Shown here: positions 5,228-35,357 of the stretch, one piece after another
How positions within the stretch are numbered: the stretch's first letter is position 1
Layout: each line of letters begins with the position of its first letter
Assembly: GCF_012027615.1 (NCBI RefSeq)
Contig: NZ_SNUT01000007.1
Coordinates: 1-64,000 of the forward strand
DNA length: 64,000 nt
Origin: Thermococcus sp. 21S7
GTDB lineage: Archaea; Methanobacteriota_B; Thermococci; Thermococcales; Thermococcaceae
Direction of reading: 5' to 3'
Position numbers and translations under genes: made by a program
The notes under the pieces: model-generated
Database searches by the model: none
What the model was told of the DNA's origin: nothing
The model's input: only the letters and a program-made list of their open reading frames with translations

Positions 5228-5839
5228 TTGGCTGAAAAGCTAAAGGGAACGACTACGGTCGGCATTGTATGTAAGGACGGCGTCGTCCTAGCGGCGGACA
5301 GGAGGGCATCGCTCGGCAACATGGTGCTTTCAGAGAGCGTTACCAAGGTCTTCCAGATAGACGACCATCTGGCCTTGGCCGGTGCTGGGAGCGTTGGAGA
5401 CATACTCTCGCTCGTTAGGCTTCTGAGGGCTGAGGCCAAGCTGTACAGGGCGAAGGTTGGGTATGAAATGAGCGTGAAAGCCCTTGCTACGCTGACTTCT
5501 AACATCCTTCACGGCAACAGGTTCATGCCGTACTTCGGGTGGTTTCTCATAGCCGGCCACGACGAGAAGCCCGGACTGTACTCGATAGACATGGCCGGGG
5601 GTATTACCGAGGATAAGTTCACCGCCGCGGGCTCTGGGATGGAGTTTGCCTTCGCGGTACTGGAGGATAGCTACACCGAGGACATTAAGCTGGAAGAGGG
5701 CGTAAAACTTGCCCTCCGGGCGATAAAAGCCGCCACAAGGCGCGATGTTTTCACGGGGGATGGAATAACCCTTGTTACTGTGACAAAAGATGGCTACCGG
5801 GAGCTGAGCAAGGAGGAGATGAAGGCTCTTCTAAAGTGA
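5228..5839 (+). CDS. psmB: Proteasome beta subunit
   Basis: 203 residues. A short propeptide (MAEKLKG) is followed by TTTVGI: autocleavage after G7 would expose Thr8 as the N-terminal nucleophile. Counting from it, Asp17, Arg19 and Lys33 fall at the canonical 20S active-site positions, so the subunit should be catalytic. It forms the inner rings of the archaeal 20S proteasome in the cytoplasm. The start is TTG at 5228 with GGGGTG about 8 nt upstream. fttA begins about 10 nt after its stop, so the two are probably one transcript; the same pair is adjacent in Thermococcus genomes. Thermococcales often carry a second beta subunit elsewhere. Confidence 0.95.
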
Positions 5840-5849
5840 GGTGGTGACT

Positions 5850-7796
5850 TTGATAAGGAGAGAAACTTTCGTTGATGACATCTTACGGGACATAAAGGCT
5901 GTGATAAGCCAGATGGTTCCCAGGGAGGCTAGGATAACCGACGTCGAGTTCGAAGGGCCGGAGCTGGTCATATACGTCAAGAACCCTGAGGCCATAATGC
6001 AGGACGGAGAGCTCATCAAGAACCTTGCCAAGGTGCTCAAGAAGCGCATCAGCGTTCGCCCTGACCCGGAGGTTCTTCTCCCTCCGGAGAGGGCCGAGGA
6101 GATGATAAAGCAGCTCGTTCCGCCTGAGGCAGAGATAACCAACGTTAGCTTTGACCCATCCGTTGGGGAGGTTCTCATAGAGGCCAAGAAGCCCGGCCTC
6201 GTCATAGGAAAGAACGGCGAAACCCTGAGACTCATAACCCAGAGGGTTCACTGGGCGCCGCGCGTCATAAGGACTCCCCCGCTCCAGAGCCAGACCATCT
6301 ACTCCATAAGGCAGATACTCCAGGCCGAGGCGAAGGACAGGAGGAAGTTCCTCAGACAGGTTGGGAGGAACATCTACCGCAAGCCCGAGCTGAAGAGCGA
6401 GTGGATTAGAATTACCGGCCTTGGGGGCTTCCGCGAGGTTGGAAGGAGCGCGCTCCTTGTCCAAACCAACGAGAGCTATGTTCTGGTTGACTTCGGCGTT
6501 AACATAGCCGCGCTGAGGGACCCCAAGAAGGCTTTTCCACACTTTGAGGCGCCGGAGTTCAGGTACGTCCTCGATGCCGGCCTGCTCGACGCCATCATCA
6601 TAACCCACGCTCACCTCGACCACAGCGGAATGCTGCCGTACCTCTTCCGCTACAAGCTCTTCGACGGGCCGATATACACCACCCCCCCGACCAGGGACCT
6701 GATGGTACTCCTCCAGCAGGACTTCATCGAGATACAGCAGATGAACGGTGTTGAGCCGTTGTACCGCCCGAGGGACATCAAGGAGGTCATCAAGCACACC
6801 ATAACCCTAGACTACGGTGAGGTCAGGGACATAGCCCCGGACATGAGGCTTACCCTCCACAACGCCGGCCACATCCTCGGCTCGTCCATCGTCCACCTCC
6901 ACATAGGCAACGGTCTCCACAACATAGCCATAACCGGCGACTTCAAGTTCATCCCAACGAGGCTCTTCGAGCCCGCTGTGAGCAGATTCCCGAGGCTTGA
7001 GACGCTCGTCATGGAGTCCACATACGGTGGAAGCAACGACTACCAGATGCCTCGCGAAGAAGCCGAGAAGCGCCTGATAGAAGTCATCCACCAGACGATA
7101 AGGAGAAAGGGCAAAGTCCTGATTCCGGCGATGGCGGTCGGTAGGGCACAGGAGATAATGATGGTCTTGGAGGAGTACGCCCGCGTTGGCGGCATAGAAG
7201 TGCCCATATACCTCGATGGAATGATATGGGAAGCTACTGCAATCCACACGGCCTACCCTGAGTACCTCAGCAAGCACCTGCGCGAGCAGATATTCCACGA
7301 GGGCTACAACCCGTTCCTCAACCCGATATTCAAGAGCGTCGCCAACAGCAGGGAGAGGCAGGACATTATAGACTCCGGCGAGCCGGCCATAATCATAGCG
7401 ACCTCGGGCATGCTCGTCGGCGGTCCGAGCGTGGAGTACTTCAAACAGCTCGCCCCGGATCCGAAGAACAGCATGGTGTTCGTCAGCTACCAGGCCGAAG
7501 GAACCCTCGGAAGGCAGGTTCAGAGGGGACTCCGCGAGATACCGCTGGTCGGAGAGGGCGGAAAGACGGAGGTAGTCAAGGTCAACATGGAGGTACACAC
7601 CATAGACGGCTTCTCCGGTCACGCCGACAGGCGGGAGCTGATAAGCTACATAGCGAGGCTGAGACCGAGGCCGGAGCGCGTCATAACGGTTCACGGCGAG
7701 CCCCACAAGTGCCTTGACCTGAGCACCAGCATCCACAAGAAGTTCGGCCTGTCGACGAGGGCTCCCAACAACCTCGACGCCATAAGGCTGAAGTGA
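5850..7796 (+). CDS. fttA: Transcription termination factor FttA (aCPSF1)
   Basis: 648 residues. Two N-terminal KH-type RNA-binding domains (about 1-145; GLVIGKNGETL is the GxxG loop) precede a metallo-beta-lactamase domain with HAHLDH (residues 253-258, zinc ligands) and a beta-CASP domain. Conserved downstream motifs include ATSGMLVGGPS, SGHADR and VHGEP. The family is the archaeal CPSF73 homologue that cleaves nascent RNA at U-rich sites and releases RNA polymerase together with Spt4/5. The frame is open from GTG 5841, but TTG 5850 is preferred: GGTGGTG lies 3-9 nt before it and homologues begin MIRRETFVDD. It directly follows psmB. Confidence 0.95.
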   Translation: MIRRETFVDDILRDIKAVISQMVPREARITDVEFEGPELVIYVKNPEAIMQDGELIKNLAKVLKKRISVRPDPEVLLPPERAEEMIKQLVPPEAEITNVSFDPSVGEVLIEAKKPGLVIGKNGETLRLITQRVHWAPRVIRTPPLQSQTIYSIRQILQAEAKDRRKFLRQVGRNIYRKPELKSEWIRITGLGGFREVGRSALLVQTNESYVLVDFGVNIAALRDPKKAFPHFEAPEFRYVLDAGLLDAIIITHAHLDHSGMLPYLFRYKLFDGPIYTTPPTRDLMVLLQQDFIEIQQMNGVEPLYRPRDIKEVIKHTITLDYGEVRDIAPDMRLTLHNAGHILGSSIVHLHIGNGLHNIAITGDFKFIPTRLFEPAVSRFPRLETLVMESTYGGSNDYQMPREEAEKRLIEVIHQTIRRKGKVLIPAMAVGRAQEIMMVLEEYARVGGIEVPIYLDGMIWEATAIHTAYPEYLSKHLREQIFHEGYNPFLNPIFKSVANSRERQDIIDSGEPAIIIATSGMLVGGPSVEYFKQLAPDPKNSMVFVSYQAEGTLGRQVQRGLREIPLVGEGGKTEVVKVNMEVHTIDGFSGHADRRELISYIARLRPRPERVITVHGEPHKCLDLSTSIHKKFGLSTRAPNNLDAIRLK

Positions 7797-7802
7797 TGTC
7801 CG

Positions 7803-9137
7803 ATGCAGGTTCGCTGTCCGAGCTGCGGGAGGCTCCACTCCTCCCTTATTCCCTTGACCTGCTCCTGCGGTGAACCCCTTGGAATAACCTACGACTACGA
7901 GGGTGTGAACGTTTCTGCCTGGAGGGACAGGAAACCCGGTGTCTGGAGGTATCGGGAGCTTCTTCCCGATGTAAAGCAGATCATCAGCCTGAACGAGGGC
8001 GGAACGCCCCTGCTGAGAGCCAAGCTCGGCGAGGAACTCGGTCTGAACGTGTTCATCAAGGACGAGACCCGGAACCCCACGGGCTCATTCCGCGACAGGC
8101 TCATCACCGTTGCCCTCTCTTACGGCCTCCCCCATGCCGAGAACGGTTTCGTGGTTGCGAGCAACGGGAACGCGGCAGCTTCCCTTGCCGCTTACTCCGC
8201 GAGGGCAGGGGTCGATGCCTACACGGTCGTGCCCAGGCTGATAGAGTCCGGAAAGCTCAACCAGATAGTGGCCTTCGGTGCCAAGGTTATACGCTACGGC
8301 GAGAGCGTTGATGAGGGCATAAGCTACGCGGAGGGACTGGCTGAGGGGAAGGGGCTCTACAACGTAACGCCCGAGAGCAACATCATTGGCCTTGAGGGGC
8401 AGAAAACGCTCGCCTTTGAACTCTGGGAGGAGCTGAATCCAACCCACGTGGTGGTCCCAACCGGCAGCGGAAGCAACCTCTACAGCATCTACAAGGGGTT
8501 CGTTGAGCTCATGGAGGTGGGCGCCATTGAGGAGATGCCCAGGCTCATAGCGGTGCAGGCCGAAAAGTGCTCCCCCATAGCGAGCGAAATCTTGGGCGTT
8601 GAGCCGAGGGCGGAGCCGACCAAGGCCCTGGCGCTCTACGTGAAGAACCCCGTGATGAAGGAGCTCGCACTTCGGGCCATACACGAGACCGGCGGAACCG
8701 CGGTGATGGTAGGCGAGGATGAACTCGACCTCGGGCAGAGACTGCTCGCCGGCGAGGGGGTCTTCGCGGAGTACGCTTCGGCGGTAATAGTTCCCGCCCT
8801 GCTCAAGCTGGCGGAGGAGAACTACTTTGAGAGGGACGACAGGATAGCGCTCATCGTGACCAGCTCGGGCCTCAAAGGGCACTACTCCGAAACCAGGGAG
8901 AAGTTCAGCATAGGCGGGACGAAGCTCGACATCCTGAGGCTCCTCAGCGGGAAGGTGATGTACGGCTACGAGATATGGGAGGCCCTTGAGAGGCCCCTGA
9001 AGTATCAGGCCGTATACCAGCACCTCCGCGAGCTTGAGAGCCTGGGTCTGATAGGTGAATCCCACAGAAAGGGCAGACGCGTCTACTACCGGCTGACGGA
9101 TAAGGGCCGCAGGTTCCTGGAGACACTGTCCGGATAG
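7803..9137 (+). CDS. Threonine-synthase-like protein fused to winged helix, PLP lysine missing
   Basis: 444 residues in three parts. A zinc-ribbon-like start (Cys5, Cys8, Cys20, Cys22) is followed by a fold-type II PLP domain of the threonine synthase family (about 60-365; phosphate loop VASNGNAA, later VPTGSGSNL). The C-terminal end (about 372-444: DILRLLSG..YGYEIWEAL, then a basic wing and LTDKGRRFL) looks like a PadR-type winged helix. The family motif NPTGSFKDR reads NPTGSFRDR: the lysine that holds PLP is Arg97 (codon CGC, 8091-8093). Without it normal threonine synthase chemistry is not expected. The combination suggests a ligand-sensing regulator; the database name threonine synthase would mislead. 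It follows fttA by 6 nt. Confidence 0.85.
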   Translation: MQVRCPSCGRLHSSLIPLTCSCGEPLGITYDYEGVNVSAWRDRKPGVWRYRELLPDVKQIISLNEGGTPLLRAKLGEELGLNVFIKDETRNPTGSFRDRLITVALSYGLPHAENGFVVASNGNAAASLAAYSARAGVDAYTVVPRLIESGKLNQIVAFGAKVIRYGESVDEGISYAEGLAEGKGLYNVTPESNIIGLEGQKTLAFELWEELNPTHVVVPTGSGSNLYSIYKGFVELMEVGAIEEMPRLIAVQAEKCSPIASEILGVEPRAEPTKALALYVKNPVMKELALRAIHETGGTAVMVGEDELDLGQRLLAGEGVFAEYASAVIVPALLKLAEENYFERDDRIALIVTSSGLKGHYSETREKFSIGGTKLDILRLLSGKVMYGYEIWEALERPLKYQAVYQHLRELESLGLIGESHRKGRRVYYRLTDKGRRFLETLSG

Positions 9138-9185
9138 CGGAAAGGTTTTAAAAGGTCTTTTTAAAGCTAAGCGTAGGTGAAGAAC

Positions 9186-9530
9186 GTGGAGCTGGCAATT
9201 GAACATAAGTTTTCACTCTCAGTTTACCTGTGGGGACTCATCTGTGGGCTCGCGAGTGGCGTAGCCGCCGCGAAGTTTCAGTACGGTTGGATGATAGGTA
9301 TTGCCATGTTCTTGGTCACCGATAAGGTAGTCATGGCCATCATAAAGGAGCTACCGCCCGACATTGAGGAAGAGCGTCTGATACTCAGGAAAGCCTTCTG
9401 GGGCTGGTTCATGTTCTGGCTGTACTTCACGATGTTCAGCTACACCCTGATGGTCAACTTCCAGCCCCAGTTCTATTCAAACCAGAGCCTGCTGTATCAG
9501 CTCACACAGAACGGAACGGTGATGGGGTGA
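9186..9530 (+). CDS. Conserved small membrane protein
   Basis: About 114 residues with a short N-terminal cytoplasmic end, two closely spaced hydrophobic segments (about 14-48), an acidic loop (PPDIEEERLILRK) and a third segment (about 75-98). I do not recognise a family. The frame also has a GTG at 9177; GTG 9186 is chosen because GGTGA lies 5 nt upstream. TATA-like elements GGTTTTAAAAGG and CTTTTTAAAG (9143-9166) would give a very short leader. The stop is 4 nt before rpiA, whose ribosome binding site lies within the end of this gene, so the two are co-transcribed. Confidence 0.65.
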   Translation: MELAIEHKFSLSVYLWGLICGLASGVAAAKFQYGWMIGIAMFLVTDKVVMAIIKELPPDIEEERLILRKAFWGWFMFWLYFTMFSYTLMVNFQPQFYSNQSLLYQLTQNGTVMG

Positions 9531-10963: not shown

Positions 10964-11455
10964 TTAGCTTATCCCGTATTTCTCCCTGATGTGCTTCAGG
11001 AACTCTCCGGCAGTGAGAATGTAAAACCAGTGTCTCTTGAGGTTGAACCTGAGCGTCTTTTCATTCCTCAGGCTCACTAAGTGCTCCGTGTTCATACTGA
11101 TTAGATAGCGAGCCTTGGAGGCGTAAACTACGTTGAGGAACTTGACGTCGTCCAAGTGGCCGACGGCCTTGACTATCTTAGGATCTTCCTCGAACTTCAC
11201 GCGGGGAGAAACCTTCTTAGTGTGGTTTTGGACGAGGTTGTAAATGGCCTTGGCCTTCTCAGGTTTCCCAACAAGGAGTCCAATGATTGCAAGGGTTTCC
11301 TTCATCTCCCTCAGGGTCTCCTTTGAACCGTAATTTTGAAGGGTTGAGGCCCTAAGAAGCTCAAGAATCCTGATGGCTGGACTTCGAGAGGGGTCCTTGG
11401 TCTTCAGAGCACTGATTAGAATTGAGGTGTCGAGGACGACCTTGAGCTGGACCAT
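10964..11455 (-). CDS. PIN-domain toxin-like protein, element cargo
   Basis: 163 residues. The start VVLDTSILISAL carries the first PIN acidic residue; a later block (HLDDVKFLNVVYASKARYLISMN) supplies the central and C-terminal acidic positions. PIN proteins are Mg2+-dependent ribonucleases, and in VapC toxins cleave tRNA or rRNA. Its ATG immediately follows the TGA of the upstream gene (11456), so translation is probably coupled, as in toxin-antitoxin pairs. It lies inside the tRNA-Leu element, antisense to the integrase halves, and may have favoured retention of the remnant (inference). Confidence 0.75.
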   Translation of the reverse strand: MVQLKVVLDTSILISALKTKDPSRSPAIRILELLRASTLQNYGSKETLREMKETLAIIGLLVGKPEKAKAIYNLVQNHTKKVSPRVKFEEDPKIVKAVGHLDDVKFLNVVYASKARYLISMNTEHLVSLRNEKTLRFNLKRHWFYILTAGEFLKHIREKYGIS

Positions 11456-11737
11456 TCAAATCACTCCGAGTTTTTTCAGCTTCCGCTCGATGCGGTGGAA
11501 CTTTTTAAGCTCTCTCCTGGCCAGTTCAAGGAGTTCCATAGTGCTTAAGTTTGCGGTTCTTTTGTCTTTCAGGATTATCTTCCAGGCCTTTTCGTCGCTC
11601 ATGGGTTTGTCCATTTCACTCATTAATTCTCTCACTTGAAAGAACCAGATGATGTCCTCTGGCTTTTCCTTCGTGGCCTTGGCGAGGCCGTCAATTACTG
11701 ACTCGAAGACTCGCCTATCAACGGCTTTTACCGCCAT
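11456..11737 (-). CDS. Putative antitoxin of PIN toxin
   Basis: 93 charged residues, mostly helical by appearance, with a lysine-rich C-terminus (ARRELKKFHRIERKLKKLGV) that could wrap the toxin. No AbrB, MetJ or PHD signature is evident, so the DNA-binding class is unknown. It directly precedes the PIN gene with no gap and has GGTGAGAG before its ATG. The assignment as antitoxin rests on order, size and coupling. Confidence 0.6.
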   Translation of the reverse strand: MAVKAVDRRVFESVIDGLAKATKEKPEDIIWFFQVRELMSEMDKPMSDEKAWKIILKDKRTANLSTMELLELARRELKKFHRIERKLKKLGVI

Positions 11738-34559: not shown

Positions 34560-35357
34560 TTAAATAGAAATATTTTCCATCCCTGGGCAGTCCGCCACTT
34601 TTTGGGGAAGAACTATCGGTAGCCCGTCAACCTTTGAGAGCCTCACACGGAGTCCGTAGAGAAGGTTCATCGTTTCCTCGGTTATCACCTCCTCCGCTTT
34701 ACCGTGTGCCAGAATCTGGCCCCCTTTCATCAGAAAAACCTCGTCACAAAAAATGAGCGCGAGGTTGGGGTCGTGGAGCGAGAGCAGGATGAGCTTTCCA
34801 AGCTTTCTCGCAATCTTCTCTATAACGGAGAGAACTACTAGCTGGTTTCTGAAGTCCAAGAACGAAGTTGGTTCATCGAATATTAGCAGCCTTCCCTCCT
34901 GGGCAACTGCCCTGGCGATTATAACGAGCCTTTTCTGGCCGCCGCTGAGTGAGGTGAACTTTCTGTCGGCTAGGTCTTCAATTCCCAGGGCCCTGAGGGC
35001 TTTCCATGCCCTTCTCTCGTCGTTCCTATCCGGCCCAGTAAACACGTTCACGTGGGGATTGCGTCCCATCAGGACGACCTCGAATACAGTGTACGGAAAG
35101 GCTATCGAGAATTCCTGTGGGGCGTACGAGACAAGCCTCGCCCTCTCTTTAAAATCCATCCTTATCATGTCTATGCCGTCCAGCTCGATGCTTCCTCTCC
35201 GCGGACTGAGAATCCCCGCGATGCACTTAAGGAGCGTTGATTTTCCTGCCCCGTTTGGCCCAAGGAGGCACCCAACACCCTTTTCAAGTTTAAACGTGAT
35301 TCCTTTGAGTACGCTGTTGTTGCGGTAGGAGAATTCCAAGTCCTCAACCTTCAGCAT
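34560..35357 (-). CDS. FecE/BtuD-type ABC ATPase
   Basis: 265 residues. Walker A GPNGAGKS, signature LSGGQKR, Walker B LLIFDEPTSFLD and switch His in LSLHDPNLAL are all present, so it should be active. It matches ATPases of iron-siderophore, heme and cobalamin importers. ATG 35357 follows GGAGGG and overlaps the 3' end of the permease gene by 14 bp. It is the last gene of the binding protein-permease-ATPase operon. Confidence 0.93.
   Translation of the reverse strand: MLKVEDLEFSYRNNSVLKGITFKLEKGVGCLLGPNGAGKSTLLKCIAGILSPRRGSIELDGIDMIRMDFKERARLVSYAPQEFSIAFPYTVFEVVLMGRNPHVNVFTGPDRNDERRAWKALRALGIEDLADRKFTSLSGGQKRLVIIARAVAQEGRLLIFDEPTSFLDFRNQLVVLSVIEKIARKLGKLILLSLHDPNLALIFCDEVFLMKGGQILAHGKAEEVITEETMNLLYGLRVRLSKVDGLPIVLPQKVADCPGMENISI

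Follow-up and report, generated by a model that had tools for sequence, protein, structure and literature searches.

A threonine synthase-like protein with a winged helix as a probable regulator of vitamin B6 supply in archaea

What is the function of a protein annotated as threonine synthase when the Schiff-base lysine is missing and a winged helix has been added? This question is raised by a gene of Thermococcus sp. 21S7 located at positions 7,803 to 9,137 of the window (the whole stretch of 64,000 nucleotides that was analyzed). Its open reading frame begins with ATG and encodes 444 amino acids, and the family annotation is “threonine synthase” (NF004170/PRK05638). The earlier note on this DNA had pointed out an arginine at the position of the lysine and a PadR-like winged helix at residues 372 to 444, and had suggested that the enzyme domain now senses PLP, threonine, or a phospho-amino acid. 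Both observations were confirmed, and the gene very probably no longer encodes an enzyme.

Architecture of the protein and loss of the Schiff-base lysine

The protein matches the NCBIfam model NF004170 from end to end (741 bits versus a cut-off of 421). Near its N terminus is a ribbon-like cysteine cluster (CPSC...CSCG, residues 5 to 23; positions 7,815 to 7,871, on the forward strand like all protein features given here), which is common to other archaeal ThrC-like proteins and in which C5, C8, and C22 are invariant among 49 fused homologues. The proposed sensor is a PALP domain, characteristic of fold-type II PLP enzymes (residues 61 to 353; positions 7,983 to 8,861; Pfam PF00291, 6e-66). 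A flexible interdomain linker (residues 359 to 371; positions 8,877 to 8,915) leads to the PadR-type winged helix (residues 372 to 444; positions 8,916 to 9,134), which is the proposed DNA-binding domain and matches Pfam PF03551 at residues 377 to 440 (2e-9, 37.6 bits versus a gathering score of 27). An AlphaFold2 model computed from an alignment of the 49 fused homologues has a pLDDT of 90.9, with a disordered linker (pLDDT below 50 at residues 359 to 369) and a separate winged helix of H-H-H-E-E-H topology at residues 372 to 443. In known PadR proteins, the C terminus forms a small helical dimerisation domain, which is absent from this model because the chain stops one helix past the wing. 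The closest solved folds found by Foldseek are threonine synthases. The enzyme domain is therefore of the fold-type II threonine synthase type rather than a fold-type I aminotransferase, and the winged helix is PadR-type and C-terminal rather than GntR-type and N-terminal.

The lysine is replaced in the motif NPTGSFRDR, where the CGC codon at positions 8,091 to 8,093 encodes Arg97. A search for another thrC in the same genome, as the earlier note had proposed, was positive. Two more ThrC-like genes were found, both with an intact lysine: one carries NPTWSFKDR and scores above the cut-off of TIGR00260, and the other carries QPSGSFKDR and belongs to PRK08329.

Upstream of the regulator gene are psmB, which encodes the proteasome beta subunit (positions 5,228 to 5,839, forward strand; Pfam PF00227 and synteny), and the gene for aCPSF1/FttA (positions 5,841 to 7,796, forward strand; Pfam KH_TffA and Beta-Casp). 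Only 6 bp separate the aCPSF1/FttA stop from the regulator start, and co-transcription of these two genes is probable. The order psmB-aCPSF1-regulator is conserved in Thermococcaceae, genus g2 excepted, and is absent from the other Thermococci family that has the regulator (f2). Between the regulator gene and rpiA there is a small membrane-like open reading frame of 117 amino acids with no Pfam match (positions 9,177 to 9,530), whose position is conserved in most Thermococcaceae. Two neighboring small genes on the reverse strand (positions 10,964 to 11,737) read by eye as a PIN-domain toxin and its partner.

Of 115 Thermococci genomes, 69 have a match above the NF004170 cut-off. Among 64 complete Thermococci orthologues, position 97 is Arg in 63 and Lys in one (L047), and the surrounding KDETRNPTGSF-x-DR is invariant. 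Arg97 is thus neither a sequencing error nor a chance event. Across archaea, Arg is just one of several replacements. Fused proteins outside Thermococci carry R, V (L086), T (L133), L (L197), I (L199), Y (L185 and L186), F (L192), and in one case K (L132). All of the approximately 35 fused proteins examined from Thermoproteia (one class) lack Lys at this position and have R, Y, F, L, or I instead, whereas Lys is present in every sampled relative without a winged helix. The winged helix and the absence of the lysine thus go together in nearly all lineages, the exceptions being L047 and L132, the two fused proteins that combine Lys with the winged helix. As a group, the fused proteins occupy one side of a branch with an SH-aLRT support of 79 in a quick tree of the enzyme domain from which column 97 was left out, and 29 of 33 lie in a clade with a support of 99.

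Most other active-site residues are conserved, including N123, the PLP phosphate loop, and T353. The expected roles of these pocket residues, such as the contact of the asparagine with PLP O3', are established knowledge of the fold. Within the asparagine loop N121-G122-N123 (positions 8,163 to 8,171), N123 is kept, whereas residue 121 is D or N in 25 of 25 R-type regulators and S, T, or A in 17 of 17 enzymes. We infer that the regulator retains a PLP site that has lost the covalent anchor, and that the part of the pocket that receives the amino acid is altered. The proteins L197, L199, L133, and L086 form a divergent fused branch in which the lysine position is L, I, T, or V and the asparagine loop is partly changed. 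Because no ECF S-component was seen in the examined stretch for three of these four proteins, they may sense another ligand. The NF004170 “equivalog” (PRK05638) covers winged-helix proteins that mostly lack the lysine, and its name is probably wrong family-wide.

A palindrome at the pdxS and ECF S-component promoters

In Thermococcaceae, both pdxS and an ECF S-component gene have a relaxed palindrome, TCAAG-N6-CTTGA, immediately after the TATA box. Its cross-genus core, also just downstream of TATA, is TTTCAAGTT-NN-AACTTGAAA. The 21S7 sites read TTATATTCAAGTTTTTTCTTGAA upstream of pdxS and TAAAGTTATAACTTGA, with one mismatch to the consensus, upstream of the S-component gene. When the regions upstream of the S-component gene are aligned, the palindrome at the TATA box is kept in genomes with the regulator while its surroundings have diverged, and it is missing from genomes without the regulator. 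An initial form, TCAAGTT-N11-AACTTGA, was a genus-specific view with an exact match only at the ECF S-component gene and was set aside, and the N2 form generalised.

We then searched 42 genomes in full for TCAAGTTNNAACTTGA (the stricter form TCAAGTT-NN-AACTTGA), allowing at most one mismatch. Exact strict-form sites number 18, of which 17 are upstream of the S-component gene or pdxS. The remaining exact site (L312:1271, in genome G099) is 72 bp upstream of an apparent serS, a gene reading as seryl-tRNA synthetase. No exact strict palindrome was found in the 13 genomes of this search that lack the regulator. With the relaxed form and at most one mismatch, a site is present at pdxS in 22 of 22 regulator genomes versus 0 of 8 without (p 1.7e-7) and upstream of the ECF S-component gene in 32 of 38 versus 0 of 7 (p 3.8e-5), with the genomes treated as independent in both tests. 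The six regulator-bearing genomes without a good site at the latter gene are mostly Pyrococcus-like loci (genus g3), where the misses reflect degenerate sites or misplaced starts. Within the window, no relaxed palindrome with up to one mismatch was found near psmB-aCPSF1-regulator that would point to autoregulation. A site at position 35,284 was taken as coding, since the opposite strand reads by eye as an ABC-transporter ATPase.

On a tree of pdxS, the regulator state changes at least three times on starred branches, and four times most parsimoniously, which indicates repeated joint loss of the operator and the regulator. The tree is unrooted, and loss is the simpler reading because other genera have both the operator and the regulator. 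The L047 genome has the operator at both pdxS and the ECF S-component gene despite the Lys in its regulator, and sensing may therefore work with or without the lysine. In the complete genome G098, a frameshift splits the regulator gene (L063) while the palindromes at pdxS and the ECF S-component gene are still present. Either the gene became a pseudogene recently or the frameshift is a sequencing error.

The best solved relative of the 21S7 S-component is HmpT (4hzu_S, E 1e-19), and the runner-up is a riboflavin S-component (0.0025). Archaeal S-components match HmpT (4HZU) with E values of 1e-19 and 2e-13. The substrate extracted with HmpT was reported to be pyridoxamine (PMC4860826). Both archaeal S-component groups keep counterparts of its Tyr120, Asn140, and Gln143, and Glu41 is kept in Thermoproteia but is Asp in Thermococcus. 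His84 is replaced by Lys and Gln87 by Glu. In Thermococcus, three of the six HmpT ligand residues are identical. Since few S-component subfamilies have structures, HmpT as the nearest relative is no proof of the same substrate.

In Thermococcaceae, an S-component from the broad family to which those of Thermoproteia also belong is encoded by all 52 regulator genomes that are at least 90% complete versus 12 of 23 genomes without the regulator. The 21S7 S-component gene (L219:6712-8749; C5, approximately 178.7 to 180.7 kb) is directly downstream of a gene for a PLP-dependent class III aminotransferase and faces a deoC-like aldolase gene in convergent orientation. In Thermococcus without the regulator, the S-component gene is close behind the aminotransferase gene and has no promoter palindrome.

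The suggestion that the protein senses PLP, threonine, or a phospho-amino acid is supported by the loss of the lysine and the presence of the winged helix, which travel together across archaea. From that list, the position of the candidate operator at pdxS and the ECF S-component gene, and not at threonine genes, selects PLP or vitamin B6.

Gene context and co-occurrence in Thermoproteia

Fused proteins are found in 35 of the 229 Thermoproteia genomes sampled (one class), leaving 194 without. An ECF S-component homologue is encoded near the regulator in 21 of 33 loci, mostly directly adjacent and accompanied by ATPase and T genes. In two loci (L086 and L082), the ECF transporter is divergent from the regulator. 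A search based on an alignment of the S-components near the regulator detected homologues in 32 of 35 regulator genomes and 67 of 194 others. Three unrelated Thermoproteota (L086, L175, and L180) have Thi4-like genes, recognized by eye, at a distance of a few kilobases from the cluster of regulator and ECF genes. A common dyad or operator was looked for in the Thermoproteia promoters, and none was recognized.

In tests that treat genomes as independent and thus ignore phylogeny, PdxS, the synthase for PLP, is found in 2 of 35 regulator genomes versus 109 of 194 others (p 5.5e-9), ThiC in 3 of 35 versus 69 of 194 (p 1e-3), and RibH in 19 of 35 versus 134 of 194 (p 0.12). The PdxS coefficient is also dominant in a joint logistic fit (-2.8 versus -0.8 and -0.7). 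Riboflavin and thiamin were therefore rejected as the vitamin concerned because the associations of RibH and ThiC are weaker than that of PdxS.

Proposed function and comparison with known systems

A one-component regulator of vitamin B6 supply best explains what was observed on the fold, the lost lysine, the winged helix, the position of the operator, and the joint occurrence and joint loss. Judging from comparative sequence data, this protein probably represses pdxS and the HmpT-like ECF S-component gene of Thermococcaceae through the palindrome, with PLP as the most likely co-repressor. In archaea, a fold-type II enzyme of the threonine synthase type acquired a PadR-type winged helix at its C terminus, and the sequences show that its Schiff-base lysine was replaced. 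The Thermococcaceae regulator is predicted to bind TCAAG-N6-CTTGA as a dimer. Occupancy of a site abutting the TATA box would block initiation and so repress both genes. PLP would bind without a covalent bond in the pocket, which keeps N123, the phosphate loop, and T353 but not the lysine, and an ample supply of PLP would thereby turn off both its synthesis and its uptake. PLP is favored as a co-repressor because such feedback is the sensible direction of control. In Thermoproteia, the regulator is usually encoded near an ECF transporter and presumably controls uptake only, and most genomes with the regulator lack PdxS. Points against this reading are the two fused proteins with Lys, the operators that persist in G098 beside a frameshifted regulator gene, the six regulator genomes without a good S-component site, the mismatch in the 21S7 S-component site, and the lack of a recognized operator in Thermoproteia.

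Several other explanations share part of this evidence. The effector of a regulator of pdxS and the transporter could be threonine, phosphohomoserine, or a PLP-amino acid aldimine rather than free PLP, as might be expected from the threonine synthase ancestry and the retained PLP pocket, and bacterial GabR uses PLP plus GABA (PMC5320631). We consider this unlikely, given that the targets are B6 supply genes whose natural signal is PLP and that the S or T of the asparagine loop has become D or N. It is also conceivable that the palindrome belongs to another transcription factor with which the regulator merely co-occurs. The operator and the regulator gene are unlinked in Thermococcaceae, and two genomes (G073 and G024) keep the site with no regulator detected, although both are incomplete (73 and 78%). 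However, the joint absence of operator and regulator, with its repeated changes on the pdxS tree, and the independent proximity of the regulator gene to an ECF transporter in Thermoproteia make this explanation quite improbable.

A link of the regulated transporter and the effector to thiamin or hydroxymethylpyrimidine instead of vitamin B6 would agree with the depletion of ThiC in regulator genomes of Thermoproteia and with the Thi4-like genes near L086, L175, and L180. The operator at pdxS, the far stronger association with PdxS absence, and the use of a PLP-enzyme fold as the sensor render it very improbable. We give the least credence to a working threonine synthase in which Arg replaces Lys by an unusual mechanism and the winged helix is merely moonlighting. 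Such an enzyme would account for the full-length match to a model named threonine synthase, the conservation of most other active-site residues, and the Lys kept in L047 and L132. Yet the residues found in place of the lysine include V, T, L, I, Y, and F, none of which is capable of forming a Schiff base, residue 121 is changed in all R-type members, and 21S7 has its two Lys-bearing ThrC-like paralogues. The name “threonine synthase” for this family thus looks wrong, and the designation as a B6 regulator is provisional.

We found no publication on this regulator, nor any archaeal vitamin B6 regulator, in the open-access literature searched. The protein is likely the first archaeal B6 regulator and the first transcription factor with a lysine-less fold-type II PLP enzyme as its sensor, in which case the MocR/PdxR principle was reinvented independently on an unrelated fold in Thermococci and Thermoproteota. 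If so, the protein would explain how vitamin B6 is controlled in archaea and lead to an archaeal transporter of this vitamin. A widely used “threonine synthase” family would need to be renamed, and a PLP enzyme would have become a PLP sensor at least twice in evolution, on different folds. The proposal lends itself to precise tests because it names a single operator of 16 bp and just two target promoters in genera with working genetics (Thermococcus and Pyrococcus).

The proposed regulator resembles bacterial MocR/PdxR proteins in that a PLP-enzyme fold is joined to a winged helix. The earlier idea of a MocR-like protein built on fold-type II is supported by the fold, the winged helix, and the operator at pdxS and the ECF S-component gene. 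MocR/PdxR proteins combine a GntR-type HTH with a fold-type I aminotransferase, whereas the archaeal regulator is of fold-type II with a C-terminal PadR-type winged helix, mostly lacks the lysine, and has its operator next to the TATA box. PdxR regulons include pdxST, salvage, and transport (pdxU) genes (PMC5320631), and the archaeal candidate operator, known from comparative genomics, is similarly found at pdxS and the gene of a putative B6 transporter, the ECF S-component. MocR proteins are stated to be absent from archaea (PMC5320631), where de novo PLP synthesis has been reported via the PdxST route only (PMC9997740). With threonine synthase ThrC (NF004170, TIGR00260, and PDB 2d1f, 1uim, and 6cgq), the regulator shares the fold, most active-site residues, and the phosphate loop, but it differs by the missing Schiff-base lysine, the extra winged helix, and the changed residue 121. 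Its winged-helix domain is like that of the PadR family (PF03551), except that it is preceded by a large enzyme domain. BirA, NadR, and CysK-CymR also use a metabolic enzyme fold as a sensor for its own pathway, and CysK is likewise of fold-type II. However, BirA and NadR keep catalysis, and CysK is a separate, unfused partner of CymR.
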